A DNA stretch of 64,000 bases from Geomonas subterranea (lineage in GTDB: Bacteria; Desulfobacterota; Desulfuromonadia; Geobacterales; Geobacteraceae). A program made the translations under genes and the position numbers. Under the pieces are notes generated by a model that was not told the origin of the DNA, ran no database searches, and saw nothing but the letters and a program-made list of their open reading frames with translations. The stretch lies in contig NZ_CP077683.1 in assembly GCF_019063845.1 (NCBI RefSeq), positions 3,526,501-3,590,500 on the forward strand, written 5' to 3'. This document shows positions 2,172 through 38,451 of the stretch, one piece after another; position 1 is the stretch's first letter, and every line of letters starts with the position of its first letter.

Positions 2172-4910
2172 ATGCCCGCTAGCGACACGGCAATACCGGA
2201 GAAACTGCAGCGCGACCTGGACTACCTGATGGAGTGCCTGGCCGAGATGTTCAACGGCCTTGGCGAGTCGCAGATCGCGGCCTGCCTTCCGAAGTCGGGG
2301 TCGGTGACGCCGTCGGAAGATTGCAAGTTCGTGAGGGCCTGGTCGATAGCCTTCCAGCTCCTCAGCATGGCGGAGGAGAACTTCGCGGTGCAGACGCGGC
2401 GGGGGGTGGAGACGGGCCAGGGGCTGGTGGCCGAGCCGGGCCTTTGGGGGCGCGTGCTGGAAAAGCTGAACCGCGGCGGGGTGCCTCAGGAAGAGATCGC
2501 CGACCTTTTGGGCCAGATCAGGGTGGAGCCGGTCCTCACCGCCCACCCGACGGAGGCGAAGCGGGCCTCTGTCCTCAGGCACTTGCGCGAGCTTTACCTC
2601 CTGCTGGTGAAGCGCGAGAACACGGTCTGGACCCCGCTGGAGCGGGAAGAGATCCGCGAGGAGATCGTGGCCATGCTGGAGCGGCTGTGGCGGACCGGCG
2701 AGATTCACCTGGAGAAGCCGCAGGTCCTGAACGAGCTCGCCACCATCATCTACCACCTGCGCGAGATCTTTCCGCAGGTGATCCCGATCCTGGACAAGAG
2801 GATCTGCCACGCATGGCGCGAGGCGGGTCTCACGAGGCCCCTCTCGCCGCTCACCGACCGCCTCCCGCGCGTCTCCTTCAGCACCTGGGTCGGGGGGGAC
2901 CGCGACGGGCACCCGCTGGTCACCCCCGAGGTCACCGCCGCCACCCTGAGGGAACTCAGGCTGAACGCGTTGCTGCTGATCCACGGCCAGCTTACCACCC
3001 TCGGCAGCAGGCTCAGTATCTCACGCCTGCTGCTCCCCCCGCCCCCCGAGCTCTCCAGGCGCCTGCAGGTACTCGCCGCGCCCACCGGGGCTCTGGGCGC
3101 CGAGGCGCTCCGTCGCAACCCCGAGGAGCCCTGGCGGCAGCTGGTGAACCTGATGAAGGCGAAACTGCCGGTTGACGTTACCGGACAGGAGGAGACCCTC
3201 TGCGGCGACTCCGGTTCCCGTTACTGCCGGGCTGCGGAGCTCGAGGAGGACCTGCGCCTGCTCCGGGACACCCTGGTGGCAACCGGCGCGACCCGGCTGG
3301 CCCTCGCCGACGTGGTGCCGGTGCTGCGCAGCGTGGAGGTGTTCGGCTTCCACCTGGCCTCCCTCGACATACGGCAGAACAGCGCCTTTCACGACAAGGC
3401 GGTGGAGCAGCTCATGTCCGCGGCGGGAGTGGAGCAGCAGGGCTTTTCCCAGTGGCGGGAACCGGAGCGCCTCGCCTTCCTCAACCGTGAACTCGCCTCG
3501 CCGCGCCCCTTCCTCCTCCCCGACGCGCAGCCCGGGCGGGAGGCGCAAAGCGTCATCGGCTGCTACCGCGTGCTGGCGGCCCAGATCCAGAGCTACGGCC
3601 CGGAGTCGCTGGGGGCCCTGATCGTCAGCATGACCCGCTCGGCTTCCGACCTCCTGGTGGTCTACCTCCTGGCACGCGAGGCGGGGCTCATGGTGACTAC
3701 GGAACAGGGGCTGGCCTGCCTCCTTCCCGTGGTCCCCCTCTTTGAGACCATCGAGGACCTGGACCAGAGCGCCCGGATCCTCGAAGAGTTCCTGGGGCAT
3801 CCCATGACCCGCCGCACCCAGGCGCGCCTTTGCGGCGTGCATCCGGTGCAGCAGGTGATGGTCGGCTACAGCGACAGCAACAAGGACGGCGGGATCATGG
3901 CGAGCCTGTGGGGGCTCTACCGCGCCCAGGAGGCGATGCTGGCGGTCGCGCGGCGCCAGGGTGTCCGCCTGCGCTTCTTCCACGGCAGGGGGGGGACCAT
4001 CAGCCGCGGCGCCGGCCCCACCAGCCGGTTCCTGCGCGGGCTCCCCGAGGGGTCGGCGTCAGGCGACCTGCGCCTGACCGAGCAGGGGGAGGTCATCTCG
4101 CAGAAGTACTCCAACCCGCTGAACGCGGCCTACCACCTGGAACTCCTGCTCGCAGGGACCGCCGGCGTCAGCATCCCCCAGCGCGGCGGGCCCGGCCCGG
4201 GGCACCCGCTGGAACCGGTGATGGACCGGCTGGCGCAGCGAAGCCGCCTGGCCTACCAGCGGCTATTGGCGAGCGAGGGGTTCGTCACCTTTTTCCGTCA
4301 GGCCACCCCCATCGACGTCATCGAATCAAGCAGCATAGGCTCCCGCCCCGCGCGCCGCACGGCGCAGCCGAGCCTGGGCGACCTCCGGGCCATCCCGTGG
4401 GTCTTCAGCTGGAGCCAGGCCCGCTACTTCCTCTCCGGCTGGTACGGCATCGGCTTCGCGCTGGAAGAACTCATGAGAGAAGATGCCGCCACCTTCGGCG
4501 AACTGGTGCGCAACTGTCAGAGCTGGACCGTGCTGCACTACATCATCAGCAACGCCGCCACCAGCGTCGCCAGCGCCAATGTCGCCATCATGCGCAGCTA
4601 TGCCGGGCTGGTACACGACGAAGCCATCCGGGAGCCGATCTTCACCGCCATCAGCGAAGAGTACCTGCGCACCGTGAGCATGCTCGAAGAGATCTATGGC
4701 GGCTCCCTGGCCGAGCGGCGCGCCGCCGTGCACAGCTCGCTGGCGCGGCGCGAGGACGCGCTCAAGGTGCTGCACGAGCGCCAGATCGCCCTGCTGCATC
4801 AATGGCGCCAGGACGCCGGGCGGCACGACACGGCGATGTCGGGAGGGCTCTTGTTCCGGCTTCTTGAAACCGTCAACGCCATAGCCGCCGGGCTTGGCAC
4901 CACTGGCTGA
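2172..4910 (+). CDS. ppc: Phosphoenolpyruvate carboxylase
   Basis: 912 residues, slightly longer than the ~880 usual for bacteria. It carboxylates PEP with bicarbonate to oxaloacetate and phosphate in the cytoplasm, an anaplerotic feed to the TCA cycle. Diagnostic motifs are present in order: VLTAHPTEAKR with the catalytic histidine, VGGDRDGHP, the GYSDSNKDGG lysine motif, and FHGRGGTISRG with the essential histidine and arginines. The protein ends GTTG, matching the conserved C-terminal PEPC tail (usually NTG). The start ATG has GAGGTG nearby at about 2160. Monocistronic by spacing: nothing on the same strand within 230 bp after the stop, which holds no gene. Confidence 0.96.
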   Translation: MPASDTAIPEKLQRDLDYLMECLAEMFNGLGESQIAACLPKSGSVTPSEDCKFVRAWSIAFQLLSMAEENFAVQTRRGVETGQGLVAEPGLWGRVLEKLNRGGVPQEEIADLLGQIRVEPVLTAHPTEAKRASVLRHLRELYLLLVKRENTVWTPLEREEIREEIVAMLERLWRTGEIHLEKPQVLNELATIIYHLREIFPQVIPILDKRICHAWREAGLTRPLSPLTDRLPRVSFSTWVGGDRDGHPLVTPEVTAATLRELRLNALLLIHGQLTTLGSRLSISRLLLPPPPELSRRLQVLAAPTGALGAEALRRNPEEPWRQLVNLMKAKLPVDVTGQEETLCGDSGSRYCRAAELEEDLRLLRDTLVATGATRLALADVVPVLRSVEVFGFHLASLDIRQNSAFHDKAVEQLMSAAGVEQQGFSQWREPERLAFLNRELASPRPFLLPDAQPGREAQSVIGCYRVLAAQIQSYGPESLGALIVSMTRSASDLLVVYLLAREAGLMVTTEQGLACLLPVVPLFETIEDLDQSARILEEFLGHPMTRRTQARLCGVHPVQQVMVGYSDSNKDGGIMASLWGLYRAQEAMLAVARRQGVRLRFFHGRGGTISRGAGPTSRFLRGLPEGSASGDLRLTEQGEVISQKYSNPLNAAYHLELLLAGTAGVSIPQRGGPGPGHPLEPVMDRLAQRSRLAYQRLLASEGFVTFFRQATPIDVIESSSIGSRPARRTAQPSLGDLRAIPWVFSWSQARYFLSGWYGIGFALEELMREDAATFGELVRNCQSWTVLHYIISNAATSVASANVAIMRSYAGLVHDEAIREPIFTAISEEYLRTVSMLEEIYGGSLAERRAAVHSSLARREDALKVLHERQIALLHQWRQDAGRHDTAMSGGLLFRLLETVNAIAAGLGTTG

Positions 4911-5141
4911 CCACGAGAAGTTCCCTGTGCGGCACCTTCCCCCCTACCCCCTTCCGCCAGGGGAGCGGAGCTATCGCGCAAGCCGTAGGGTAATCCGCAA
5001 CGCCCTCTCCATTTATTCCTCCTGAAATTGCCAAGGGTCCTTTCTTAAGAAATCCCGGCTCGCGCCGAAAAGCCCCGTAAGTCGCGCGGAAATATCCAGT
5101 CTCCCGGGACGGAGTTTTACGCGTGACCAAGGAGCCTTGCC

Positions 5142-7565
5142 ATGACCATCAAGTCGAAGTTGATCCTCAACGCCGGCATCGTACTGCTGGCCGTTGCAGC
5201 CGTTTCCGCCGCGAGCTTCCTCAGCATGAATTCGATCAGGGGCAAACTCTCCTACCTCACCGAGAAAAGCACACCGTTCCAACTGCGCACCATGGAGTTC
5301 CAGCGGGCGCTGCAGGGTGCGACCGCCGACCTGGTCAAGGTTGCGGCTGCCCACAACGAGGCCGAGTTCGCGGCGGCGAAACAAGAGGCGGAGAAGTCGC
5401 TGGCCGAGGTGCGCGGCGCGCAGGAGAAGCTGGAAGCCATATCCGGTGAGAAACTGGAAGCCTCCGCCGAGTTCGGTGACATCGCCCGGGAGCTCTACGC
5501 CACCATGACCGCGCGGCTCGCTTCCCAGCGGGAATCGGCCCAGGCACATGCGCTCATACTGCAAAAAGGGCAGGAGGCGGGTACCCGGCTCCAGGACCTG
5601 GAGGCCAAGGTGAGCCTCTTGCAGCGTTCCAGTTCGTCGGCCTACGCCACGGCCAACGACGAGGCCGACAAGACATCCAAGAACATCGCCAGCATCGAGA
5701 CGCTGAAGGTCTCCCTCAAGGAGCTGAGGTTCCTTCTCTACGACATGCAGCGGGCGCCCGAGAAGAAGCAGACCTTCAGCCAGTACGCGAGCACCATGAA
5801 GAAGGTGCAGCAAAACAGCAACATCCGGCACAACAACCGGATCGGCGGCCAGTTCACCGCGTTCAGCGCGAAGGCGGACCTGCTCGCGAAGACTTTAGCT
5901 GAAGGAGGGGACCCGCGCCGGGGCGAAGCGCAGCTCAAGGAGGCGCTCGAGGCGTTGAGCGAGGTGGACGACGAGATCGAGGATGAGGTGGACAAGGCCC
6001 AGCTGCTGGTGGGGAGGATCTCGGGGAAGCTCCCCGGCTACCTCTCGCGGGCCAACGCCGCCGTCAACGTCCTCTCCATCAACACGGAGCTCGTGTCCCT
6101 GGGGAAATCGCTCGAAGGTCTGTCGGGGCGCTTTTTCTTCGCCAACACCCCCGGCGAGCTCGACGCGGTCGCCGCCGAGTTCAACCGGCGCTACGACAGG
6201 CTGGGTCAGGTGGAGAAATCCGTGGCGGCGCAGCTCAAAGCCGCCGGGGCCCAAGGAGAGCTGCGCATCCTGGGTGGCGTGAGCGCCTCCCTGGCCGGCA
6301 TCCGCTCCACGGTTTTCGCGCAAGACGGCATCATGGTCAAGCTGCGCCAGAAGATGCAGTTGGAGGAAAAAGCCAACAAGGGGGCGGCGCGGTTGCGGGA
6401 AGTGGTGGCGAAGCAGGCCGAAATGGGGAAACGGACCGTATCCGCGGCGCAGGAGGGGCAGGAGCAGGCGATCGGGACCGTGAACCGGACCATACGCTTC
6501 AGCATGATCCTGATCCTGGTGATTGCCGTCGGCACGGGGCTGCTGGGGAACGTGGTGGGCATCTGGATCTTCCGGAGCATATCCCGTCCCATCGCGCAGT
6601 TGACCGACCTGGCGGAGCGGGCGGCGGAAGGGAATCTGGCCGTCACCATCGCCGCGGACAGAAAGGACGAGGTGGGACGGGTTCAGCTTGCCATGTCGCG
6701 CATGCTGGCCAGCCTCAGGGACGTGGTCGGCAGGATCGGGGATGCCACCTGCACCCTCGCCAGCAGTTCCGAGCAGATGGCGGCCACGGCCGGCGTTCTT
6801 GAGGACGGAGCGGCGCGCCAGGCGCACCGGGTGGAGCAATCGGCGCTCTCCATGTCGCAGATGACGGCCACCACGGTGGACATGGCCCAGAACGCGTCGG
6901 CAACGGCCAGCGCCGCGGACACCATGAAGGAGATAGCGCTCGCGGGGAAACAGGCGATGCAGCAGACGGCCGAACAGCTGCAGAGCTTCGCCCATACCTT
7001 TGCCGAAACCGCAGGGATGGTGGAGCAGTTGAGCGGGCAGTCGGCACAGATCTGCGAGATCGGGGTCCTGATCCGCGACATCGCCGACCAGACCAACCTC
7101 CTGGCGCTCAATGCCGCCATCGAGGCCGCCCGTGCCGGGGAACAGGGGAGGGGATTCGCGGTGGTCGCCGACAACGTGAGGGAACTGGCAGAGCGGACCG
7201 CGGCGGCCACCGCCGAGATCGACCACACCGTGAAGGCGATGCAGGAAAGCGTGAACCGCTCGGTGCGCAAGATGAGCGAGGAACGGTCCTCGGTCGACAC
7301 CATCATGAGCCGGGTTCAGGGCACGGAGGAGGCGATCGACCGGATGGCAACCTACGTGGCCCAGGTGCACGACATGGTGCGGCGCATCGCCGTCGCCACC
7401 GAAGAGCAGTCGGCGACCAGCGCTGCGGTGGGGGAAAATGTGGAGGAGATCGCGGGACTGACCCGCGAACTGCGCGCCGCCTGCAGCGGCATCCGGGAAT
7501 CCTCGGACGGACTTTCCCGCCTGGCCGGAGATCTGAAGGGGATGGTGGAGTGGTTCCGGGTCTGA
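5142..7565 (+). CDS. Methyl-accepting chemotaxis protein with large periplasmic helical domain
   Basis: 807 residues. Transmembrane helix 1 is at about residues 7-27, followed by a ~420-residue, alpha-helical, Ala/Glu/Lys-rich sensing region, unusually large for a chemoreceptor. Helix 2 is at about 452-475 ([20 protein letters not shown]), then a HAMP domain to about 530. The cytoplasmic signalling hairpin has the canonical tip [20 protein letters not shown] and [18 protein letters not shown] near residues 645-690, which binds CheA and CheW. No cache or PAS fold is obvious in the sensor part, so the ligand cannot be guessed. AAGGAG precedes the ATG. No che genes are adjacent, so it is an orphan receptor. 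The gene ends at a strong terminator. Confidence 0.93.
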
Positions 7566-29828: not shown

Positions 29829-30722
29829 TTAGTTGGACCGCCTGGCGAGAATGCGGTCCTTGATCTCTCGCACCTCCCTGAGCGCCTGGACGCTCAAACG
29901 GTCCGGCGCGCAGTTCTCGCGGTCCGCCCGCCGCACCTCCTCGCAGAAGGAGATGGTCCCGAGCAGCTGCGGCGCGGGGATTTCAGCCTCGATCAGCCGC
30001 CGGTCCTCGTCGTCGCGCACCTTGCTCCCCACCACGAAGACCTCCTCGATGCCCAGGTCGGCGGCCAGCCGCGTAATCTGGCGGGCGGTCTGCAGACTGC
30101 GCTGCCCCGGTTCCACAACGACCACCAGGGCGTCCACCGATTCGGCCGTGCGGCGTCCCAGGTGCTCGAGCCCGGCCTCCATGTCCATGACCACCACCTC
30201 GTCCCGTTCCAGGAGGAGGTGTCCCATCAGACGTTTCACCAGGGTACTTTCCGGGCAGGCGCAGCCGCTCCCCCCCTGCTCCAGGGTTCCCATCCAGAGG
30301 AAACGGACGCCGTCGTGCTCCAGGCAGAACTGCTCCGGCAGGTCGCAGACCTTGGGGTTCAGCTTGAAGAAGGAGCCGTAGCCGCCGCTCGCGCCGGTGC
30401 GTTCCTCCGCGAGTTCCTTCATGCGCGCCACCGGTTGCAGCTTTGCGGCCCGCTCGGCCGGGATCCCCAGCGCCGCAGCGAGATTGGCGTCCGGGTCGGC
30501 GTCCACGGCCAGCACCCTGGCGCCGTCGCTTGCGAAGGCACGGCAGAGGAGGCTCGCGAAGGTGGTCTTGCCCACCCCCCCCTTGCCGGTGATGGCGATC
30601 TTCAGCCCCGGGCCGCGCTGGGGCACGGCGTGGAGGTGGTGATGGCTGTGACTATGGTCGTGATGGTGATCATGGTCGTGGTCATGGTCGTGGTCATGGT
30701 CGTGGTTGTGATGGTCGCACAC
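29829..30722 (-). CDS. cooC: CooC-type nickel-insertion ATPase with histidine-rich N-terminus
   Basis: 297 residues, from a GTG start at 30722 (AAGGAG ten bases before). The first 31 residues contain 17 histidines, mostly alternating with aspartate, as in HypB or CooJ nickel stores. Then follows a MinD/CooC-type ATPase: KIAITGKGGVGKTT (deviant Walker A with signature lysine), LAVDADPDANL, the CxC nickel/dimer motif GSGCACPES, and VVMDMEAGLEHLGRR. CooC drives nickel insertion into the C-cluster of CO dehydrogenase. Here a storage tail that is a separate protein (CooJ) in Rhodospirillum rubrum seems fused on. It lies 149 bp after cooS, with a palindromic repeat between. Confidence 0.9.
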   Translation of the reverse strand: MCDHHNHDHDHDHDHDHDHHHDHSHSHHHLHAVPQRGPGLKIAITGKGGVGKTTFASLLCRAFASDGARVLAVDADPDANLAAALGIPAERAAKLQPVARMKELAEERTGASGGYGSFFKLNPKVCDLPEQFCLEHDGVRFLWMGTLEQGGSGCACPESTLVKRLMGHLLLERDEVVVMDMEAGLEHLGRRTAESVDALVVVVEPGQRSLQTARQITRLAADLGIEEVFVVGSKVRDDEDRRLIEAEIPAPQLLGTISFCEEVRRADRENCAPDRLSVQALREVREIKDRILARRSN

Positions 30723-30763
30723 TGTTCGTACTCCTTCTCTCGTTCCAACAGGCTGTGTGGCGG

Positions 30764-30827
30764 AAAAAGGGGACAGGCTACTTTTTGGGGAGAACGTCTC
30801 GGTGAAAAAGCAGCCTGTCCCCTTTTA
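30764..30827. repeat. AAAAAGGGGACAGGCT inverted repeat between cooS and cooC
   Basis: AAAAAGGGGACAGGCT (30764-30779) faces AGCCTGTCCCCTTTT (30812-30826), with smaller CTTTTTGGGG and GTGAAAAAGC segments between. It resembles the REP-like elements mobilised by RAYT transposases elsewhere; no such transposase is in the window. Confidence 0.82.
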
Positions 30828-30871
30828 TTCAGCCTCCCCCTCCGCGGGGAGGAGTTGTACTCCTCACGCTG

Positions 30872-32779
30872 CTAAATCCCCAATCCCTTCCTGCGCTCCT
30901 CGATCACCTCCAGGAGTTTGTCCGCCGCGAGGTTCGGGTCGAGTTCCACAAGGAAGTAGCCACCCAGCAGATCCTTGGCGGTCTGGGTCAGGAGCTCGGT
31001 AACCTTGGCCGAACCGGTGACCTGCGGCATGGTGCCCAAGTGGGTCGGGATGCCGAGCGCCACGCTCCAGGTGCCGATGGCGACCGCCTTTTCCGACATC
31101 GCCTCGGGCGCCGAGGCGACCAACGGGAGCTGGTCGAGGTCCACGCCGAGCTTGTCGGCGACGGCCACCGCCACCTGGACGGCGCGGCTGTTGTCCACGC
31201 AGGATCCCATGTGCAGCACCAAGGGGAGCGGCCCGTTCAGCCCGGCCGAGGTGCCGATTGCGGTCATGACCGCCTTGAGGGAATCCCCGGCGTACTCCAG
31301 CGTCGCCTCCTGGGTCATGAGACCGTGCTTGGCGAAGGCCCCGGCGCCGCAGCCGGTGGCGAGCATGAGCACGTTGTTGGCGGCGAGCTTCTTGGCCATG
31401 GTGACGAAGCTGCTGTCCTGCGCCACCTGGGTCGAGTTGCAGCCGGCGAAGAGGGCGATGCCGCGGATGTTGCCGTTGGCGATGTTCTCGATCAGCGGCT
31501 GGAGCGGGTCTTCGGCGTTCAAGGTCGCCAGTGCCCCCACCACGGACTCGACGCCGAAGCCGACGATGGCGGTCTGCTTGAAGTCCGGGATGTTGACCCG
31601 GCGCGGGTCGCGGCGCTTGTAGGCCTCGATGGCGGTCGCGACAATGCGGCGCGCGTTCTCCAGTGCTGTTTCCTCCCTGAATTCCACGTGGGTGGCACCG
31701 GGGATCTTGTTCTCCGCCATGGTGGTTATCACGGCGGTGTGGAAGCAGGCGCCGATCTCGCTCACCGAGGGCATGATGCACTGTACGTCAACCACCATGG
31801 CGTCGACCGCGCCGGTGACCAGCGCGAGCTCCTGCGAGAGGTAGTTGGCCGCCAGCGGGATGCCGTGGCGCACCATGACCTCGTTACCGGTGCAGCAGAT
31901 ACCGACGATGTTGATCCCGTCCTTGGCCCCGGCCTTCCTGGCCTCCTCGTCCATCTGACCCGCGACCTCGCAGACCACCTCGCTCAAAAGCGGATTGTGG
32001 CCGTGCACCGCGATGTTCACCGCATCCGGCTTGATGACGCCAAGGTTCGCTGCCGTCACCACCGGGCTCGGCGTCCCGAAGAGGACGTCGGAAAGCTCGG
32101 TTGCGAGGCACATGCCGTCAAAGTCGGCAAGCGCGCCCTTGATGCCGCCGAGGATCAGGTTGACCGGATCGGCGTCGCACCCGACCAGGGTGCGCCCCAT
32201 GATCTGGGTGATCACGGCGTCGATGTTGTGCGGCACGACGTGCAGGGCCTGCAGGCGCTCCAGGCGCTTTTTCGTCAGGCTCGCCTCCACCCAGTTGCAG
32301 GGGGCGTCGTGGTCCTGATTCTGGAAATCCTCCAGGGTAGCCTTGGCTACCGCGGCGGCGATGGCCGGGATGTCCTCTCCTTCGGTGCAGATGCCGAGTT
32401 TCGCCGCAACCGCACGCAGCTTGGCCTCGTCGCGAATCTGGTAGGCGGGGAGCCTCCCCTCCGCCACCCCCTGCAGGGCGAGCGCCACGTGGCGGCCGTG
32501 CTCGGAGTGACCCGCAGCGCCGGCCGCGATCATGCGGATCACGTTCCTGGCCACGATGGTATCGGCGTCGGCGCCGCAGATGCCGCGCTGGGGGCCGTCC
32601 CCGAACGGATCGATGCGGCAGGGGCCTTTCCAGCAGATGCGGCAGCAGACGCCTAACTGGCCGAAGCCGCACTGCGGCTGCATGGCGCGGTGGCGGTCCC
32701 AAACGGTGGAAATCCCTTCTTTCTTGGCGATGGGCAGCAGGGTCGCCGCGGACGGATCGGTGCTGAGCTTCATGGTCAT
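30872..32779 (-). CDS. cooS: Anaerobic Ni-Fe carbon monoxide dehydrogenase, catalytic subunit
   Basis: 635 residues, the usual length. It interconverts CO + H2O and CO2 + 2H+ + 2e-. The N-terminal cysteines of the D and B clusters are present (CGFGQLGVCCRICWKGPCR, then GICGAD). C-cluster ligands are all there: HGHNPLLSE (His), VGICCTGNE, DVQCIMPS, FAGCNSTQ, ATGCGAGAF and HMGSCVDNSR. No ACS-type domain, so this is the monofunctional CooS type paired with CooF. The ATG at 32779 is fixed by its ATGA overlap with the cooF stop; a second ATG two codons later is possible. Cytoplasmic or membrane-associated through CooF. Confidence 0.97.
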   Translation of the reverse strand: MTMKLSTDPSAATLLPIAKKEGISTVWDRHRAMQPQCGFGQLGVCCRICWKGPCRIDPFGDGPQRGICGADADTIVARNVIRMIAAGAAGHSEHGRHVALALQGVAEGRLPAYQIRDEAKLRAVAAKLGICTEGEDIPAIAAAVAKATLEDFQNQDHDAPCNWVEASLTKKRLERLQALHVVPHNIDAVITQIMGRTLVGCDADPVNLILGGIKGALADFDGMCLATELSDVLFGTPSPVVTAANLGVIKPDAVNIAVHGHNPLLSEVVCEVAGQMDEEARKAGAKDGINIVGICCTGNEVMVRHGIPLAANYLSQELALVTGAVDAMVVDVQCIMPSVSEIGACFHTAVITTMAENKIPGATHVEFREETALENARRIVATAIEAYKRRDPRRVNIPDFKQTAIVGFGVESVVGALATLNAEDPLQPLIENIANGNIRGIALFAGCNSTQVAQDSSFVTMAKKLAANNVLMLATGCGAGAFAKHGLMTQEATLEYAGDSLKAVMTAIGTSAGLNGPLPLVLHMGSCVDNSRAVQVAVAVADKLGVDLDQLPLVASAPEAMSEKAVAIGTWSVALGIPTHLGTMPQVTGSAKVTELLTQTAKDLLGGYFLVELDPNLAADKLLEVIEERRKGLGI

Positions 32780-33342
32780 ATCCTTGCCTTCCTTGATTTG
32801 AGATGTTGGAGGGATTGGGCCAGTTCGGCGGCCCTCGCCTCGATCAGGGTCTGACGGTACTCTTCCAGGTCCACGAGCGAGAGCGCCTTGGTGGGGCACC
32901 CCTCGACGCAGGCGGGGACGTCGCGCCCGGTGCCGGCGCAGAGGTCGCACTTGCGCGCGATGCCACCGTTGGTGCGGCAGCTTTCCGGATCGCCCCCCTC
33001 GTGCTTCACGCTGATGGCGCCGAAGGGGCAGACCATGACGCAGACCTTGCACCCCACGCAGTTCTTCTCGCGCACCCCGACCTGGCCGCTCTCCTGCAGC
33101 ATGGCGCCGGTGGGGCAGGCCGCCGCGCAGGGCGCGTCCTCGCACTGGCGGCACTGAACCGGCATCATCACACCGCCGGCCGCCACCACGCGGTTGCGCG
33201 GCCTCAGTGTCAGCCCCGAGAGCGCCGCCTGGTGCAGCCCCGTCCCGGAATGGGCCACCGCACAGGCCAGCTCGCAGCCGTGACAGCCGAGACAGCGCTC
33301 AGGATCGGCAAATACGATGGCATTTTCACGTTGTCGCTTCAT
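32776..33342 (-). CDS. cooF: CooF-type ferredoxin, electron-transfer partner of CooS
   Basis: 188 residues with four four-cysteine groups, enough for four [4Fe-4S] clusters: CLGCHGCELAC, CRQCEDAPCAAAC, CVGCKVCVMVC, and the CDLC / ACVEGC pair. CooF carries electrons from CooS to the hydrogenase or another acceptor. GGAG lies eight bases before the ATG. It ends ATGA, overlapping the cooS start, which fixes the two as a translationally coupled pair. Between it and hypA are 375 bp of repeats, so cooF-cooS may have its own promoter or may depend on readthrough. Similar proteins (HycB, DmsB) have the same motif order, but adjacency to cooS decides the call. Confidence 0.93.
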   Translation of the reverse strand: MKRQRENAIVFADPERCLGCHGCELACAVAHSGTGLHQAALSGLTLRPRNRVVAAGGVMMPVQCRQCEDAPCAAACPTGAMLQESGQVGVREKNCVGCKVCVMVCPFGAISVKHEGGDPESCRTNGGIARKCDLCAGTGRDVPACVEGCPTKALSLVDLEEYRQTLIEARAAELAQSLQHLKSRKARI

Positions 33343-33398
33343 TGTGGTCTCCTTTGCATGTCAATCCTTACGCATCTTTTGCTACCTACGTCCACATC

Positions 33399-33710
33399 CC
33401 CTCTCCCCCGGGAGGGCCAGGGTGAGGGCGTTGCCATGACAAGATGACTGCAGCCGGCAAGCCCCTCACCCGCCCTTCGGGCACCCTCTCCCAGAGGGAG
33501 AGGGAAGGAACACCAGAGGGAGGGCTCCATCTCCAAACAAGTTGCCGCTGCGTCCCCTCTCTCAAAGGGAGAGGGAACACCAGAGAAAGGGCGCCCCATC
33601 TCCACACAAGTTGCCGCTACGTCCCCGCCCCCGGAGGGGGAGGGACAGGGAGGGGGCTGCCTCATGCTTCCCCCCCCCCATCCTCCCCCTCCGGGGGGAG
33701 GGGCGCCAAG
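33399..33710. repeat. Cluster of GC-rich palindromic repeats between hypA and cooF
   Basis: Five palindrome cores in 312 bp: CCCCTCTCCCCCGGGAGGG (33399 on), CCCTCACCCGCCCTTCGGGC with CTCTCCCAGAGGGAGAGG (33462-33504), CCCTCTCTCAAAGGGAGAGG (33555-33574), CCCCGCCCCCGGAGGGGGAG (33623 on) and CCTCCCCCTCCGGGGGGAGG (33682 on). A ~66-bp direct repeat lies within, starting GGAACACCAGAG at 33508 and again at 33574 and each containing CAAGTTGCCGCT. It fills most of the 375-bp gap, which holds no gene. Confidence 0.88.
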
Positions 33711-33717
33711 CTGCCAC

Positions 33718-34107
33718 TTATCGCTGACAGTCAGTCGCTTTGCGGCATGTGCCGCTAGCCGGGTTACAGATTGCCTCCAGGCTCTCCACATAAAGTTCCC
33801 TGCCGCCCGTCATCTCGACGTCGCCTCCGGTGCAGCGGGGGCAGATAAAGCGGTAATTCTCGATCCTGAAGCGCTCTCCGCAGCCCCGGCAGCGCCCCGT
33901 GAGCGGCACCTCCTCGATCTCCAGTCTGGCCCCCTCGGCCACGGTCCCCTCAGCCACTACCTCGAAACAGGCGGCAAGGGTCATCGGCTCCACCGCAGCC
34001 AGCGCCCCCACCTTCAGGCGCACCGCCGAGATGGACTCGATCCCCCGCGCCGCCACCTGCTCGTTGATGATCTCGAAAAGCCCGGTCACCAGTGTTATCT
34101 CGTGCAT
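33718..34107 (-). CDS. hypA: Hydrogenase nickel-incorporation protein HypA
   Basis: 129 residues from the ATG at 34107. It begins MHEITLV, whose His2 is the nickel-binding residue of HypA, and has the zinc site CRGCGERFRIENYRFICPRC (two CxxC pairs). It delivers nickel, with HypB, to the [NiFe] centre of hydrogenase large subunits. Length is about ten residues above usual, with a C-terminal extension after LESIEA-type sequence (YVESLEAICNPASGTCRKAT). It starts 8 bp after the cooH stop, so it belongs to the hydrogenase operon and probably serves CooH. The His-rich CooC nearby could take over part of the HypB storage role. Confidence 0.95.
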   Translation of the reverse strand: MHEITLVTGLFEIINEQVAARGIESISAVRLKVGALAAVEPMTLAACFEVVAEGTVAEGARLEIEEVPLTGRCRGCGERFRIENYRFICPRCTGGDVEMTGGRELYVESLEAICNPASGTCRKATDCQR

Positions 34108-34115
34108 GGCGTCTC

Positions 34116-35198
34116 CTAGCGGTCCGTGCAGGCGATGCAGGGATCGATGCTGTTCACGATGAGCGGAATGTTGGCGACCGGCTCCCCTTTCAGCATCACC
34201 TTGAGGGCGTCCCAATTCATGTAGGAGGGGACGCGCCACTTGAGACGCACCGGGAAGTCCGAACCGTCGGTCCTCAGGTAGTACATGAGCTCGCCGCGCG
34301 GCGCCTCCGACTTCGCAATCGCCTCGCCGGCGGGGATCTCCGGGAGGGTGTCGGCGTACAGCGGCCCCGCTGGGAGTTGCGCCAGGCACTGCTCTATGAG
34401 CGACACCGACTGCCGCGCCTCGGCAAGCCGCACCAGGTTGCGCGCCCGGACGTCCCCCGCCGTTTGAGTCGCCACTTCGAATTCGAGGCGGTCGTAGGCG
34501 CCGTAGGGGCTTTTCCTGCGCACGTCGTATCCGATGCCGCAGGCCCTGGCCACCGGCCCCACCACCGCGCACTCGACGGCGGCCTCGCGCGGCAGCACCC
34601 CTACCCAGGCCATGCTCGCCATGAGCGCCGGGTTGTTGCCGAACTGCAGGTAGAGCTCGTCCAGCGGTTTTTTCATCTCCTCCATCGCCCTCGCCAGGTA
34701 GGTTGCCGCCTCCGGGGTGAGGTCGTAGCGCACGCCGCCGATCACGTTCGCAGCCAGGTCCATGCGGTTGCCGTAGATCGCCTCCTTGGCGCGCTGCATG
34801 ATCTCGCGGATCTCCATGACGCGGCGGAACAGCGCGGTCTCGCCTATCGCGTTGGCCTGCACCGCGCAGCAGAAAAGGTGCGAGGCGATGCGCTTGATCT
34901 CGTCGGCCACGGCGCGCAGGTACTCGGCCCGCGGCGGGATCACGATCCCCGCCACCTCCTCCACCGCCGCGCAGAAGGTGCTCGGATGGCTGTTGGAGCA
35001 AAGCGAGCAGAGCCGCTCCAGGAGGGTTATGTTCTGGTACAGGTTGCGGCGCATCACCAGGTGCTCCATCCCGCGGTGCACCTGTCCCGGCAGGACGTCC
35101 AGATCGGCCACCCGGTCCCCCTCCAGCCTGACCCGGAAGTACATCGGCTCCTCGAGGGCCAACTGGTGAGCACTCAACTTGATTACCCTGGTGTTCAT
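34116..35198 (-). CDS. cooH: Energy-converting [NiFe] hydrogenase large subunit, CooH type
   Basis: 360 residues. Both cysteine pairs that hold the NiFe centre are present: ERLCSLCSNSH near the N-terminus and IDPCIACTDR at the extreme C-terminus. The protein stops right after the second pair, so there is no cleavable tail; CooH is likewise unprocessed. It aligns with the 49-kDa (NuoD) family: MYFRVRLEGDRV, HRGMEHLV, and YLRTDGSDFPVRLKWRVPSY. It reduces protons with electrons from CO, normally coupled to ion pumping through membrane partners that are not in this window. The ATG at 35198 overlaps the cooU stop as ATGA. Confidence 0.93.
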   Translation of the reverse strand: MNTRVIKLSAHQLALEEPMYFRVRLEGDRVADLDVLPGQVHRGMEHLVMRRNLYQNITLLERLCSLCSNSHPSTFCAAVEEVAGIVIPPRAEYLRAVADEIKRIASHLFCCAVQANAIGETALFRRVMEIREIMQRAKEAIYGNRMDLAANVIGGVRYDLTPEAATYLARAMEEMKKPLDELYLQFGNNPALMASMAWVGVLPREAAVECAVVGPVARACGIGYDVRRKSPYGAYDRLEFEVATQTAGDVRARNLVRLAEARQSVSLIEQCLAQLPAGPLYADTLPEIPAGEAIAKSEAPRGELMYYLRTDGSDFPVRLKWRVPSYMNWDALKVMLKGEPVANIPLIVNSIDPCIACTDR

Positions 35199-35836
35199 GC
35201 ATCCTCCCGTTCGCCAAGCACCCTGTCCCAAAGCGCCTTGCCGGTTGCCGCGTTGCTGAACGTGGAATACGGGACCAGGCGCTCGAAGGGTGCGTGGGTA
35301 ATGGTGTGATCGAGGAACAGGCGCCGCGGATCGGGGTGCCCCACCACCTGGACGTCGTAGAGTTCCATCAGCTCCCGCTCCTGCCAGTCGCAGTTGCGAA
35401 AGATTGGGGTGAGGGAGGGAATTCGCGCCCACTCCAGCGGGAGTGTGACGGTGAGGGTGAGGGTGGCGCCGTCCAGGTCGAAGTGGTAGGCGATCTCGCG
35501 CCCGCCCTTCTCCTGGGACCGTTCCGGCAGATACGGCGTCACCATGGCCAGGCGCCCCTCTAACTCCGCGATGGCACGGGCCGCCGGGAGCAGCGCTTCC
35601 CCGGAAGGGAGGCGGCACCAGCCGGTCAGTACCCCCTTGCGGTCCCGGCGCCATGTCACCGTGGTTTCCTCCCCCGCCGCCAAGGCCAGTGCGGAGGCGA
35701 CGCCAGCTACGACGCCGGTCACGTCCGGTGTTCCGCCACCTTCAAAACCATCCCTCATCCGACCTTCAGGCGCCCTCTCGCGGCGGGAGAGGGGAGCGGT
35801 CGGCGTATCGCCTGTCTCGTTGGTGCAATCGTTCAT
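35195..35836 (-). CDS. cooU: Hydrogenase NuoC-like subunit CooU with an in-frame repeat near its N-terminus
   Basis: 213 residues. The C-terminal two thirds are a 30-kDa (NuoC/EchD) domain: FRNCDWQERELMELYDVQVV and GHPDPRRLFLD are diagnostic. The start at 35836 is fixed by an ATGA overlap with the cooX stop. Residues ~14-34 (TAPLSRRERAPEGRMRDGFE) are not native: they translate a copy of the GC-rich palindromic element at 35755-35797, kept in frame. Native sequence resumes with DVTGVVAGVASALALAAG. The first 13 residues may also be remnants. The stop overlaps the cooH start. The subunit bridges the large and small hydrogenase subunits and needs no cofactor. Confidence 0.88.
   Translation of the reverse strand: MNDCTNETGDTPTAPLSRRERAPEGRMRDGFEGGGTPDVTGVVAGVASALALAAGEETTVTWRRDRKGVLTGWCRLPSGEALLPAARAIAELEGRLAMVTPYLPERSQEKGGREIAYHFDLDGATLTLTVTLPLEWARIPSLTPIFRNCDWQERELMELYDVQVVGHPDPRRLFLDHTITHAPFERLVPYSTFSNAATGKALWDRVLGEREDA
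35755..35797. repeat. GC-rich palindromic repeat inside cooU coding sequence
   Basis: CCCTCATCCGACCTTCAGGC followed by GCCCTCTCGCGGCGGGAGAGGGGA: the same core as the intergenic family, here translated in frame as part of CooU. Confidence 0.85.
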
Positions 35837-36231
35837 CTTACCGGTGCTCCTATGCTCATCCGCCGCCGGCAGGCCGGGCAGAGGGTTGTCAGCTTTTCGA
35901 TTTCGGGAGTGGGGCGGCGGAAGGCCGCGTGCAGGAGTTGGGGGGCCGCCGGGATGATGGGGTCGCCGCAGCCGGAGCAGGGTGCGTATGGTACCTCGCC
36001 CCGCTCGACCTGGGCGAAAGCGTCGACGGCCCGGTGGTCGAGGCGCCAGTCGCCCGTGACGGAAAGGGCCCCGGTGGGGCAGTAGTGGCTGCACAGGCCG
36101 CAAAATACGCAGCTGTTGTGCCAGAGGGTCAGGCGGGCGCCCCGCTCCCCCTCCTCGAAACGGATCGCCCCGGCGGCGCAGACGTGCCGGCACATGCGGC
36201 AGTCCACGCAGGCGCCAGGATCGAAGCTCAG
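35833..36231 (-). CDS. cooX: Hydrogenase polyferredoxin subunit CooX, probable CTG start
   Basis: 132 residues if it starts at CTG 36231. Cysteine groups CVDCRMCRHVC and CVFCGLCSHYC are two [4Fe-4S] ferredoxin sites; later APCSGCG and LCPACRRR form two further CxxC pairs, possibly zinc or rubredoxin-like. No ATG precedes the first cysteine: the frame meets TAA 11 codons upstream of the GTG at 36207, and using that GTG would lose the first cluster cysteine. CTG at 36231 overlaps the cooL TGA as CTGA, parallel to the ATGA overlaps of the other genes, so translational reinitiation there is the likely start. The protein relays electrons between CooF/CooS and the hydrogenase. Confidence 0.85.
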   Translation of the reverse strand: MSFDPGACVDCRMCRHVCAAGAIRFEEGERGARLTLWHNSCVFCGLCSHYCPTGALSVTGDWRLDHRAVDAFAQVERGEVPYAPCSGCGDPIIPAAPQLLHAAFRRPTPEIEKLTTLCPACRRRMSIGAPVR

Positions 36232-36734
36232 CCTCCCCGGGCGGGGAAATTATCGGTGATGGGGCACTTCCGGTCACCCGGCTCCCCGCCCCGCTCCCCC
36301 CCGCCGCGGCGGGCCCGGAGGATCTCCAAGGCCCGGGCGATCCCGGCCAGCAGGGCCTGGGGGCGCGGCGGGCAACCGGGCACGTTCACGTCCACCGGCA
36401 GGTGGCGCTCAAGCGGGCCGTCCACCGCGTAGCTGTCGCGGAAGACACCGCCTGACACCGGGCAGACCCCGACGGCGACGGTGACCTTGTCCTGCGGCGT
36501 CTCCGCGTAAAGGCGCAGCACCTCGTCCTTGGCGCGGACGGTGAGCGGGCCGGTGATGAGGAGGATGTCCCCCTCGTGCGCCGAGCCGGTGTAGCTGCAC
36601 CCCAGTTGCTCCACGTCGAATTCCGTCACCGCCGAGGTCACCGCCAGTTCGACGTCGCAGCCGTTACAGGACCCGGTGTTGATGCGGAACAACCGCACCG
36701 GCTCCGCTGCCGTTTCTTCTACCTCGATGTGCAT
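36228..36734 (-). CDS. cooL: Hydrogenase small (NuoB-like) subunit CooL
   Basis: 168 residues from the ATG at 36734; longer open sequence upstream is repeat DNA and has no ribosome site. Proximal [4Fe-4S] ligands are visible: TGSCNGCDVEL, VGVCPVSGG and PGCPPRPQAL, the NuoB/EchC pattern. It receives electrons from CooX and passes them to the NiFe site in CooH. The C-terminus has an Arg/Gly-rich tail (RARRGGGERGGEPGDRK) of low complexity. First gene of the cooLXUH-hypA operon, behind a ~700-bp leader with a candidate CooA operator at 36802-36817. Confidence 0.92.
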   Translation of the reverse strand: MHIEVEETAAEPVRLFRINTGSCNGCDVELAVTSAVTEFDVEQLGCSYTGSAHEGDILLITGPLTVRAKDEVLRLYAETPQDKVTVAVGVCPVSGGVFRDSYAVDGPLERHLPVDVNVPGCPPRPQALLAGIARALEILRARRGGGERGGEPGDRKCPITDNFPARGG

Positions 36735-36789
36735 CGCCCTCTCCCGTTGATGACAAATTGCAGCCATGGGCGGCAATGTAGGCGAAAAA

Positions 36790-37231
36790 GCGGCCGCGGT
36801 CTGTCGGACAGCCGACAGTTCGTAGTTTTTCTTCGCCAAATAAGTTTGTCCCCCAGTCCCTCTCCCTCTGGGAGAGGGTGCCCGTAGGGCGGGTGAGGGA
36901 CACGCCACGAAGGGGGCTCATGGACGGGCGCGCCGCCTCTTTCCCTCACCCCAGCCCTCTCCCAGAGGGAGAGGGAGTAGGAGTGGGAGAGATAGTGGGG
37001 GGGAGGGAGATTCGTGTGGGAGGTGGGAGCGCGGCCGCGGTCTATCGGACAGCCGCAATGCGTTGTTTTTTCCTCGCCGCAAATGTCCTTCCCCCAGTCC
37101 CTCTCCCTCTGGGAGAGGGTGCCCGCAGGGCGGGTGAGGGATACGCCACGAAGAGGGCTCATGGACGGGCGCGCCGCCTCTTTCCCTCACCCCTCTCCCT
37201 CACCCCGGCCCTCTCCCAGAGGGAGAGGGAG
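36790..37231. repeat. Imperfect ~241-bp tandem duplication in the cooL leader
   Basis: Copy 1 (36790-36976) and copy 2 (37031-37231) both begin GCGGCCGCGGTCT and continue with the operator-like palindrome, a T-rich stretch, CCCCCAGTCCCTCTCCCTCT, CGCCACGAAG, GGGCTCATGGACGGGCGCGC and a second GC-rich palindrome. In copy 2 the operator half-sites are degraded (TATCGGACAGCCGCAA). Much of each copy is GC-rich palindromic repeat. Confidence 0.88.
36802..36817. promoter_or_regulatory. Candidate CooA/CRP-family operator before cooL
   Basis: TGTCGGACAGCCGACA is an inverted repeat, TGTCG-N6-CGACA, close to the known CooA consensus TGTCA-N6-(C/T)GACA. It is 68 bp upstream of the cooL start codon. Confidence 0.6.
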
Positions 37232-37263
37232 ATAAAAAAGGGGAGTGTGGACCGGTTCAGCTT

Positions 37264-37364
37264 ACGTGGGAACTACGTGGGAACTACGTGGGAACTACGT
37301 GGGAACTACGTGGGAACTACGTGGGAACTGCATGGGAAACTGCATGGGAAACTGCGTGGGAACT
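37264..37364. repeat. 11-bp minisatellite downstream of the cooA-like gene
   Basis: Six exact tandem copies of ACGTGGGAACT (37264-37329) followed by variant units GCATGGGAAACT (twice) and GCGTGGGAACT. All six copies lie between cooA and the cooL leader and do not belong to a gene. Confidence 0.93.
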
Positions 37365-37434
37365 GTGGGTGGGCGTTTGTCTGCGGAGAGATCTGCAGGA
37401 AATTGAGGCGAAGACAGCGCCAGAAGTGGAGCGA

Positions 37435-38094
37435 TCAGGAAAATTCCTTCATCTCCTTGAAGGCATCCAGTTCCTTGATGAGCAGGGTCTTGCGGTCGAT
37501 CTTCACCAGCAGGCCGGCCTTGATGAAGTCGTTGATGATCTGGGAGATGGTCTGACGGGTGGTGCCGACCAGGAGGGCGATGTCCTCGGTGCCGAGGCCT
37601 AACTGCACCACGGTCCCTTGCGGGGTCACCTGCCCCCGATCGGCCGCGGCGCCGAGGAGAAAGTCCACCAGGCGCAGACGGACGTCCTTGAAGGCGAGCC
37701 CCTCGATGGTCTGGATGGAATTCCGCAACAGCTCGCCGAGGACCTTCACCATGGTGAGCGAAAGCTCGGGACGACGGGCCAACGCCTGCCGGAACGTCGC
37801 GGTGCTGCAGACCAGGATCTCGGTCCCCTCCAGGGCTTGAACGAAGGCGGGTGTATGGGTGCTGAAGACGTCGCCTTTCTCCAGGAGCGCCAGGGTGAAT
37901 TCCTTGTCCTCATAGGCGAGGTAGATGCGGAGCCGGCCGCTTCGCACCACGAAGACCAGGTTCTTCTCCTCGAAGGGTGAGTAGACAAGCGTCTTCCTGG
38001 CGTAATGGCGCGCCGTGAAGTTGGTCTGAAAGTCGGAGTCGGCGTGAAAAAGCGAGAGGAGGTCCGCGTCGGAAAGCTTCATCTTGTTCGGCAT
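37435..38094 (-). CDS. cooA: CooA-like CO-sensing transcription regulator (CRP/FNR family)
   Basis: 219 residues from ATG 38094 (GGGAG seven bases upstream). A cyclic-nucleotide-type effector domain (VFVVRSGRLRIYLAYEDKEF), a long C-helix (LTMVKVLGELLRNSIQTIEG), and a winged HTH (LLVGTTRQTISQIINDFIKA). Compared from memory with Rhodospirillum rubrum CooA, Pro2 is present (MPNK versus MPPR) and His80 in FSTH aligns with haem ligand His77; Cys75 is replaced by Ser78, as in some other CooA proteins that lack it. The HTH GTTRQTISQ parallels GSSRQTTST of CooA. FNR-type cysteines are missing. It lies on the same strand upstream of the coo genes and probably activates them when CO binds haem. Confidence 0.8.
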   Translation of the reverse strand: MPNKMKLSDADLLSLFHADSDFQTNFTARHYARKTLVYSPFEEKNLVFVVRSGRLRIYLAYEDKEFTLALLEKGDVFSTHTPAFVQALEGTEILVCSTATFRQALARRPELSLTMVKVLGELLRNSIQTIEGLAFKDVRLRLVDFLLGAAADRGQVTPQGTVVQLGLGTEDIALLVGTTRQTISQIINDFIKAGLLVKIDRKTLLIKELDAFKEMKEFS

Positions 38095-38451
38095 AACTGG
38101 CTCCCTTGTCGCATTGGGTACCGCCGCATTATGCAGCAGCGCCCCCAAAAAAGGCAAGGCGGCAACGGCTAATCCCCGTATACATTGAGCAGTTACAACG
38201 ACAGGCAGCCGTCACGGCCGGTACCGCCCTGCTCACCCGCAGCCAAAGACTGAAGTAAAAACGGGTATCTGCCGATGTAGGATAAAGACGTACTCCAAAA
38301 TAAGCCGGGTCCTTATATAAGGACTCACCCTGATTTGCTACTTTAGTGGTCGTTTTGGGTCGGACGCGGTGAGCAGTGCCAATGCCGGATTCCCTGTAAG
38401 ACTTCAGCACCGGATCCACACTCGCTTGGCCGCCACTGGAGACAGTATTTC
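38095..38451. other. Divergent intergenic region between cooA and the MASE1 kinase
   Basis: 357 bp without a gene. It contains the perfect palindrome at 38309-38324 and must hold promoters for cooA (minus) and the kinase (plus); no convincing -35/-10 pair or TGTCG-N6-CGACA operator was seen for cooA. Confidence 0.5.
38309..38324. promoter_or_regulatory. Perfect 16-bp AT-centred palindrome
   Basis: GTCCTTATATAAGGAC has two exact 8-bp arms; GGGT and ACCC lie a few bases beyond on either side. It is 128 bp before the hybrid kinase start and 215 bp before the cooA-like start, and looks like a dimeric repressor site. Confidence 0.45.

Follow-up and report, generated by a model that had tools for sequence, protein, structure and literature searches.

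Which protein senses carbon monoxide (CO) in the Geobacterales, and what does it switch on? The question is raised by a 64,000-nucleotide stretch of the Geomonas subterranea genome (NZ_CP077683.1, positions 3,526,501 to 3,590,500; the window), in which a CRP/FNR-superfamily regulator gene, termed cooA here, lies beside genes for a CO dehydrogenase (CODH) and a hydrogenase. Geobacter spp. are said not to harbour CooA in a passage of one paper (PMC4257681), and an excerpt of another gives G. sulfurreducens RcoM only (PMC4703632). The available part of a 2026 survey places CooA, RcoM or CorQR beside Ni-CODH and energy-converting hydrogenase genes in genera including Geobacter, with no regulator specified there for each genus (PMC13077300). 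No report of CooA in Geomonas was found in the open-access literature. Our analysis makes it highly probable that the window protein is CooA, a homodimeric transcription activator that senses CO through haem b and whose CO-bound dimer would activate cooLXUH-hypA-cooFSC through a palindrome at 36802-36817. CooA would thus very probably switch on the neighbouring CO-oxidising gene cluster.

Placement of the regulator among CooA proteins

The open reading frame delimited in a preliminary description of this DNA is borne out and lies on the minus strand, which that description did not give. The gene and its key features are as follows.

38094-37435, minus: cooA, encoding a 219-residue CRP/FNR-superfamily protein, the predicted haem CO sensor CooA (ATG at 38094, stop at 37435)
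38101..38106, minus: AGGGAG, a Shine-Dalgarno-like site read from the sequence, ahead of the start codon that yields Pro2
38089..38091, minus: Pro2 codon, predicted distal haem ligand in trans through its N-terminal amine, by comparison with CooA structures in an excerpt of PMC12937710
37855..37863, minus: codons 78-80 (Ser-Thr-His), with Ser78 at the place of Rhodospirillum rubrum Cys75 and His80 at that of the haem ligand His77
37519..37590, minus: helix-turn-helix, residues ~169-192, with recognition stretch TTRQTISQIINDF (PF13545 43.8 bits, cut-off 27; DSSP of the AlphaFold2 (AF2) model)

By sequence comparison the window protein is an orthologue of the solved CooA proteins. A phmmer search against PDB sequences (55 sequences, E up to 0.01) gives 231.9 bits for Carboxydothermus hydrogenoformans CooA-1 (E 4.7e-68) and 114 bits for R. 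rubrum CooA (6.5e-32), compared with 62.7 bits for the best non-CooA sequence, NtcA, 39.9 for CRP (1i6x) and 27.4 for an FNR-type regulator, and the likeness to CooA is therefore not due to chance. No chain named HcpR or DNR is among those 55. All 52 CooA-like rows form one side of a 100/100 branch in our tree, opposite 17 CRP/FNR outgroup rows; the tree holds no named HcpR or DNR row, and RcoM could not be aligned. The five best structural matches of the AF2 model are all CooA chains (in a VIA second look at Foldseek's list), and the window protein shares 65-94% identity with its full-length orthologues from named Geomonas species. AGGAG/GGAGG-type sites occupy the equivalent place before many cooA orthologues, and helix-turn-helix residues R180, Q181 and S184 are invariant in the aligned rows (28/28).

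The closest solved relative is CooA-1 (PDB 2FMY, 2HKX), with 51.9% identity over shared columns. The two have in common the His ligand motif (His82 in CooA-1), length, N-terminal extension and helix-turn-helix, and differ in Ser78 here versus the Cys of FCTH there and in Pro2 versus Ala2. R. rubrum CooA (PDB 1FT9) is 34.8% identical over shared columns and has the fold, Pro2, the His77 equivalent and the RQT..S recognition stretch in common with the window protein. The 52% identity to CooA-1, the 100/100 branch, the ligand His and a loop deletion uphold the preliminary identification as CooA rather than a generic CRP. The tree placement proposed there as a check sets the protein on the CooA side, outside the non-haem regulators among the 17 outgroup rows.

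A nucleotide-binding regulator of CRP type (for cAMP or another nucleotide) or an FNR-type Fe-S regulator might merely resemble CooA. The generic Pfam models cNMP_binding and HTH_Crp_2 do score over cut-off and the CRP and FNR models match weakly, but all nine NCBIfam matches (NtcA, CRP, FtrB, FNR, FixK and others) are far under cut-off, the best reaching 54.7 of 244.95 bits, CRP 49.9 of 266 and FNR 30.8 of 228. Alignment with E. coli CRP leaves the cAMP-binding stretch, or phosphate-binding cassette GEL...RSA, deleted or unmatched. The preliminary description was also right that the FNR cysteines are missing: in place of an N-terminal Fe-S set, the whole protein has a single Cys, at position 96. 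With the tree position outside the CRP/FNR rows, such an origin is extremely improbable, and we rejected CRP, FNR and NtcA identities on the sub-cut-off models, the alignment and the tree. RcoM was rejected as an identity since the Pfam matches are cNMP_binding and helix-turn-helix models with no PAS or LytTR, and no LytTR domain is found in the genome.

Haem ligands and the sensed gas

A His in FSTH had been assigned to the position of haem ligand His77, and this assignment holds. In the alignment FSTH falls opposite FCTH in CooA-1 and FCMH in Rhodospirillum CooA, and His80 is present in all 52 CooA-like rows; this stretch was outside the search patterns by which the named loci were gathered. 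Haem binding requires the absence of a loop matching CRP residues 72-82, according to an excerpt of PMC12937710. This loop is deleted in the window protein, where the stretch after position 78 is shorter by 8 residues than in E. coli CRP, by 6 than in FNR and by 7 than in the other 15 outgroup rows. Both the ligand His and the shortened loop are direct observations from the alignment, and the protein is predicted to bind haem and CO.

The second expected ligand is Pro2. The predicted N-terminus, MPNKMKL, forms an extension with a removable Met and has a Shine-Dalgarno-like site at its ATG. While Pro2 is present as first described, it was rejected as a diagnostic residue: only 22 of 49 readable starts have Pro, the others having Lys (16), Ser (4), His (3), Arg (3) or Asp (1). 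These starts were chosen by our own rule, with two PDB segments and one cut gene left out. Close relatives have His2, as in Geomonas edaphica (L021) and G. oryzae (L022), where CooA starts MHKKMKL with a good Shine-Dalgarno site upstream (cooA start at 10001). With MHKKMKL for MPNKMKL, these species are natural variants at the predicted N-terminal haem ligand. Under the usual rule for Met removal, the first Met should stay before His2, which would alter that ligand. Natural N-terminal variants with Pro2, Ser2, His2 and Lys2 would be useful for testing which N-terminal ligands CooA tolerates.

The preliminary description further held that Ser78 replaces the redox-switch Cys75 and that ferric ligation must differ from that of R. 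rubrum. The replacement is real, but it is no peculiarity of this protein. Across the 52 rows, Ser is the commonest residue at position 78 (32), ahead of Cys (8), Ala (6), Val (4) and Thr (2); after thinning to <90% identity (n=37) the respective counts are 21, 7, 4, 4 and 1. Cys is found in four alphaproteobacteria and the R. rubrum chain, two Carboxydothermus rows and the distant row L104. The textbook Cys75 is thus a minority trait among the gathered rows rather than a family-wide one. As 44 of 52 rows have no Cys here, ferric ligation unlike that of R. rubrum is likely, although common to most rows. With Ser78 in place of Cys75, the R. rubrum-type thiolate redox switch is not expected. In Carboxydothermus CooA the ligands are Ala2 and His82, and they stay the same on redox change, as stated in part of PMC6955866.

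The sensed ligand cannot be read from sequence, and the signal of a CooA-descended haem protein might be NO, O2 or redox state instead of CO; CRP/FNR proteins that bind haem but respond to other signals, PgRsp and HcpR, are described in parts of the literature. The target operon here, however, encodes a CODH and a hydrogenase, each of the 15 regulator-carrying genomes (of 24 in the family) also has CooH, and the nearest characterised relative, CooA-1, is a CO sensor. The window protein also keeps L119 and G120, invariant in the aligned rows, and L123 (>=90%), which we take to match the R. rubrum C-helix pocket. We therefore judge a signal other than CO very unlikely.

Operator, predicted promoter and mechanism

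Two elements in the cooL leader define the predicted target of CooA.

36802..36817, strand not assigned: candidate CooA operator TGTCGGCTGTCCGACA, a palindrome
36775..36780, minus: predicted -10 hexamer TACATT, placing the operator centre at -41.5 of the predicted start site near 36768

The 4.99 Mb genome contains a single exact copy of the motif TGTCGGCNNNCCGACA, at 36802-36817. An excerpt of a 2004 study gives the operator consensus TGTCGGCNNGCCGACA for Desulfovibrio and R. rubrum, the latter also having a TGTC-type palindrome (PMC545781). The cooL operator agrees with this consensus in all specified bases but one; by sequence, a CooA-type operator precedes the coo genes. In the part of that study concerned, Desulfovibrio, with its predicted CooA, is the only one of the then-sequenced deltaproteobacteria to have the regulator (PMC545781); here it is found in Geobacterales.

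We compared the window with 13 named or metagenome-assembled genome (MAG) loci from Geobacterales and Desulfuromonadales that hold a cooL leader. The palindrome precedes cooL in all 14, with 13 exact copies and one mismatch in Pelotalea. A TAnnnT hexamer lies 29.5 bp from the operator centre in 13 of them and 30.5 bp away in Desulfuromonas BM515, which puts the operator centre at -41.5 or -42.5. The conservation of the palindrome and its fixed distance from a -10-like hexamer are directly observed. Across the window and all 37 gathered loci, exact TGTCRN6YGACA sites are found in 30 of 38, compared with 1 of 38 for the reversed pattern. TAnnnT stands at +29.5 on one strand for 27 of 32 sites, and other offsets between 15.5 and 59.5 account for <=3 each; these counts are inflated by closely similar loci within Geomonas and within Desulfobulbia. 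The +29.5 spacing is also seen in Bacillota and Spirochaetota loci.

We propose that haem b would be held, in both ferric and ferrous states, by His80 and by the N-terminal amine of Pro2 from the partner subunit. No thiolate swap would accompany redox change because position 78 is Ser. CO binding to the reduced haem would displace the Pro2 amine and free the DNA-binding domains. The active dimer may then bind TGTCGGCTGTCCGACA (36802-36817), whose centre lies near -41.5, and recruit RNA polymerase in a class II manner to transcribe cooLXUH-hypA-cooFSC.

Several points weigh against this model. The ligand assignment is borrowed from related proteins, E. coli FNR also has a His in the His80 column (albeit without the loop deletion), residue 2 is His in G. 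oryzae and G. edaphica, and residues 1-10 of the AF2 model, which hold Pro2, have a predicted local distance difference test (pLDDT) score <50. The -10 hexamer and the cooL start site are predictions. Eight of the 38 loci have no exact loose site (L024, L025, L034, L036 and the alphaproteobacterial L051-L054). Genome-wide, the loose pattern gives 6 sites a strand versus 6 for the reversed control, and TGTCGGCNNNCCGACA with <=2 mismatches gives 39 and 33 versus 59 and 52 for the control. Allowing one mismatch, the window has 3 matches versus 5.75 in shuffles. With genome counts not above reversed controls, we rejected the operator consensus as evidence by count alone; the case for the operator rests on exactness, place and conservation.

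Autoregulation of cooA was rejected, as the 400 bp before cooA in the 14 loci contain no site with <2 mismatches. Matches with two mismatches occur there in five (L019, L020, L024, L026, L033), and Salidesulfovibrio (L040), outside those 14, has an exact loose site immediately before cooA. In Geomonas silvestris, G. limicola and MAG SKS3, cooA follows cooC and could be co-transcribed with it. The cooL leader of the window also contains a duplicated segment (36790-36952 and 37031-37193; spacing 241 bp, matched blocks 91% and 96% identical); in the distal copy the operator is decayed and reads TATCGGACAGCCGCAA on the plus strand. A tandem 11-bp repeat, TACGTGGGAAC, lies between cooA and cooL at 37252-37374.

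The target operon and its distribution

The preliminary description placed the regulator beside a CODH locus, and CODH and coo hydrogenase genes indeed adjoin it. A same-strand run extends from 38094 to 29829, with cooA first and 700 bp upstream of the remaining genes.

36228..36734, minus: cooL, NuoB-like small subunit of the hydrogenase; the target operon begins with this gene
35833..36207, minus: cooX, ferredoxin-like; the true start is possibly further upstream
35195..35836, minus: cooU, Complex1_30kDa domain (PF00329 62.1 bits, cut-off 22.5)
34116..35198, minus: cooH, NiFe-hydrogenase large-subunit-like, with CSLC and DPCIAC motifs read from the sequence
33718..34107, minus: hypA (TIGR00100 94.9 bits, cut-off 88.1)
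32776..33342, minus: cooF, ferredoxin-like electron carrier
30872..32779, minus: cooS, Ni-CODH catalytic subunit (TIGR01702 781.8 bits, cut-off 478)
29829..30722, minus: cooC, P-loop nickel-insertion ATPase by likeness and place, with no NCBIfam model over cut-off

CooS is the sole Ni-CODH over cut-off in the genome. In the window 375 bp separate hypA from cooF, versus ~12 bp between matched stretches in G. edaphica. This small gap in G. edaphica, together with the absence of a second exact operator from the window, makes it likely that cooL to cooC form one operon.

Regulator and hydrogenase occur together. In the window's genome, 18 others of its genus and 5 of its family (CooA E <=1e-20, CooH E <=1e-80), CooA and CooH agree in 24/24, both being present in 15 and neither in 9; one of the 15 cooA copies is cut by a contig end. 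CooA had no match in 15 further genomes, which were left out of the CooH search. At E <=1e-25 it matches in 11 of 395 genomes drawn from the phylum, the window's genome included. Flanks of up to 10 kb contain CooS in 31 of the 37 gathered loci; those without full CooS are L023, whose contig ends in cooF, L029, L037, L039, L041 and L043. On one of these, an 8.2 kb Desulfuromonadales MAG contig (L029), the CooA homologue (4426-5190) has a CooA-type palindrome just downstream and no coo gene was found. A tandem pair of CooA-like genes (L101 and L108, 44% and 42% identical to the window protein) occurs in one genome (G066).

This coupling bears on whether the operon might answer to RcoM or some other CO sensor, with CooA a relic or acting elsewhere. 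Passages of older papers assign Geobacter CO control to RcoM (PMC4257681, PMC4703632), and the RcoM of G. sulfurreducens presumably performs the same task, CO-dependent control of a CODH operon; it is an unrelated protein of PAS and LytTR domains, as described in part of PMC4703632. However, the search for LytTR found none in the G. subterranea genome and hence no RcoM candidate, each of the 15 genomes (of 24) with cooH retains cooA, and an operator of CooA type precedes cooL. Control by another CO sensor is accordingly a highly improbable explanation.

Unlike in the Carboxydothermus CooA-1 case, the target operon here appears to lack cooM and cooK. As probes we used two Carboxydocella (L032) frames that lie between its operator and cooL and were assigned to CooM and CooK from their position and similarity, and searched 23 sequences. 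Neither probe matched in the window (64 kb, operon at 29829-36734) or in 13 other Geobacterales/Desulfuromonadales operon loci (L018-L024, L026-L028, L030, L031, L033; 4.2-20.7 kb each). Among nine Bacillota and alphaproteobacterial loci outside these orders, both match in six (L032 itself, L034, L035, L051, L052, L054), CooK alone in L053 (at a contig edge) and neither in L036 and L044. The CooK family PF00146 has three matches in the G. subterranea genome. Two, at 435.9 and 415.1 bits, are presumably complex I, and the third belongs to a distinct Hyf-like cluster that has L and H subunits of its own. As both probes fail in all 14 loci and the PF00146 matches lie elsewhere in the genome, the CooA-controlled operon appears to have no membrane arm of its own. 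No report of the missing CooM and CooK was found in the open-access literature.

A different partner gene is seen in two Spirochaetota genomes and in Kiritimatiellota and Verrucomicrobiota genomes, where a CooA homologue stands tail-to-tail with a CODH-like protein of 172-223 residues.

L037 7372-7887, minus: short CODH-domain gene
L039 10643-11281, minus: short CODH-domain gene
L041 10694-11287, minus: short CODH-domain gene
L043 4266-4934, minus: short CODH-domain gene

The short protein resembles the C-terminal Rossmann part of Ni-CODH: a four-sequence profile finds 36 PDB sequences, all CODH (best E 6e-24), and Pfam Prismane is over cut-off in two of three scanned proteins. Three Cys in the aligned region, which we take to be C-cluster ligands, are absent from L039, L041 and L037, and L043 keeps two. 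A CooA-type palindrome lies upstream of the short gene in 4/4, with TAnnnT at +29.5 in 3/4. Ni-CODH is over cut-off in none of the four genomes, whose completeness is not given. It looks as though the CO sensor has outlived its enzyme in these genomes and may drive a non-catalytic CODH-derived protein. No report of this arrangement was found in the open-access literature.

Our results provide a concrete CooA, operator and promoter geometry for the Geomonas group and correct the picture of CO control in Geobacterales. Alongside this correction, the promoter geometry that recurs across loci, the operon's apparent lack of a pump and the pairing of CooA with a short CODH-domain gene are worth retaining. 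Tentatively, and with slightly less than even confidence, we suggest that in Geobacterales the CO sensor acts on a CODH-hydrogenase operon that has lost its proton-pumping membrane arm. If so, CO sensing would induce a non-pumping CO-oxidising complex, in contrast to the CooA control of energy-conserving CO respiration elsewhere, and that complex may serve to remove CO, feed electrons elsewhere or dock in trans on another complex.
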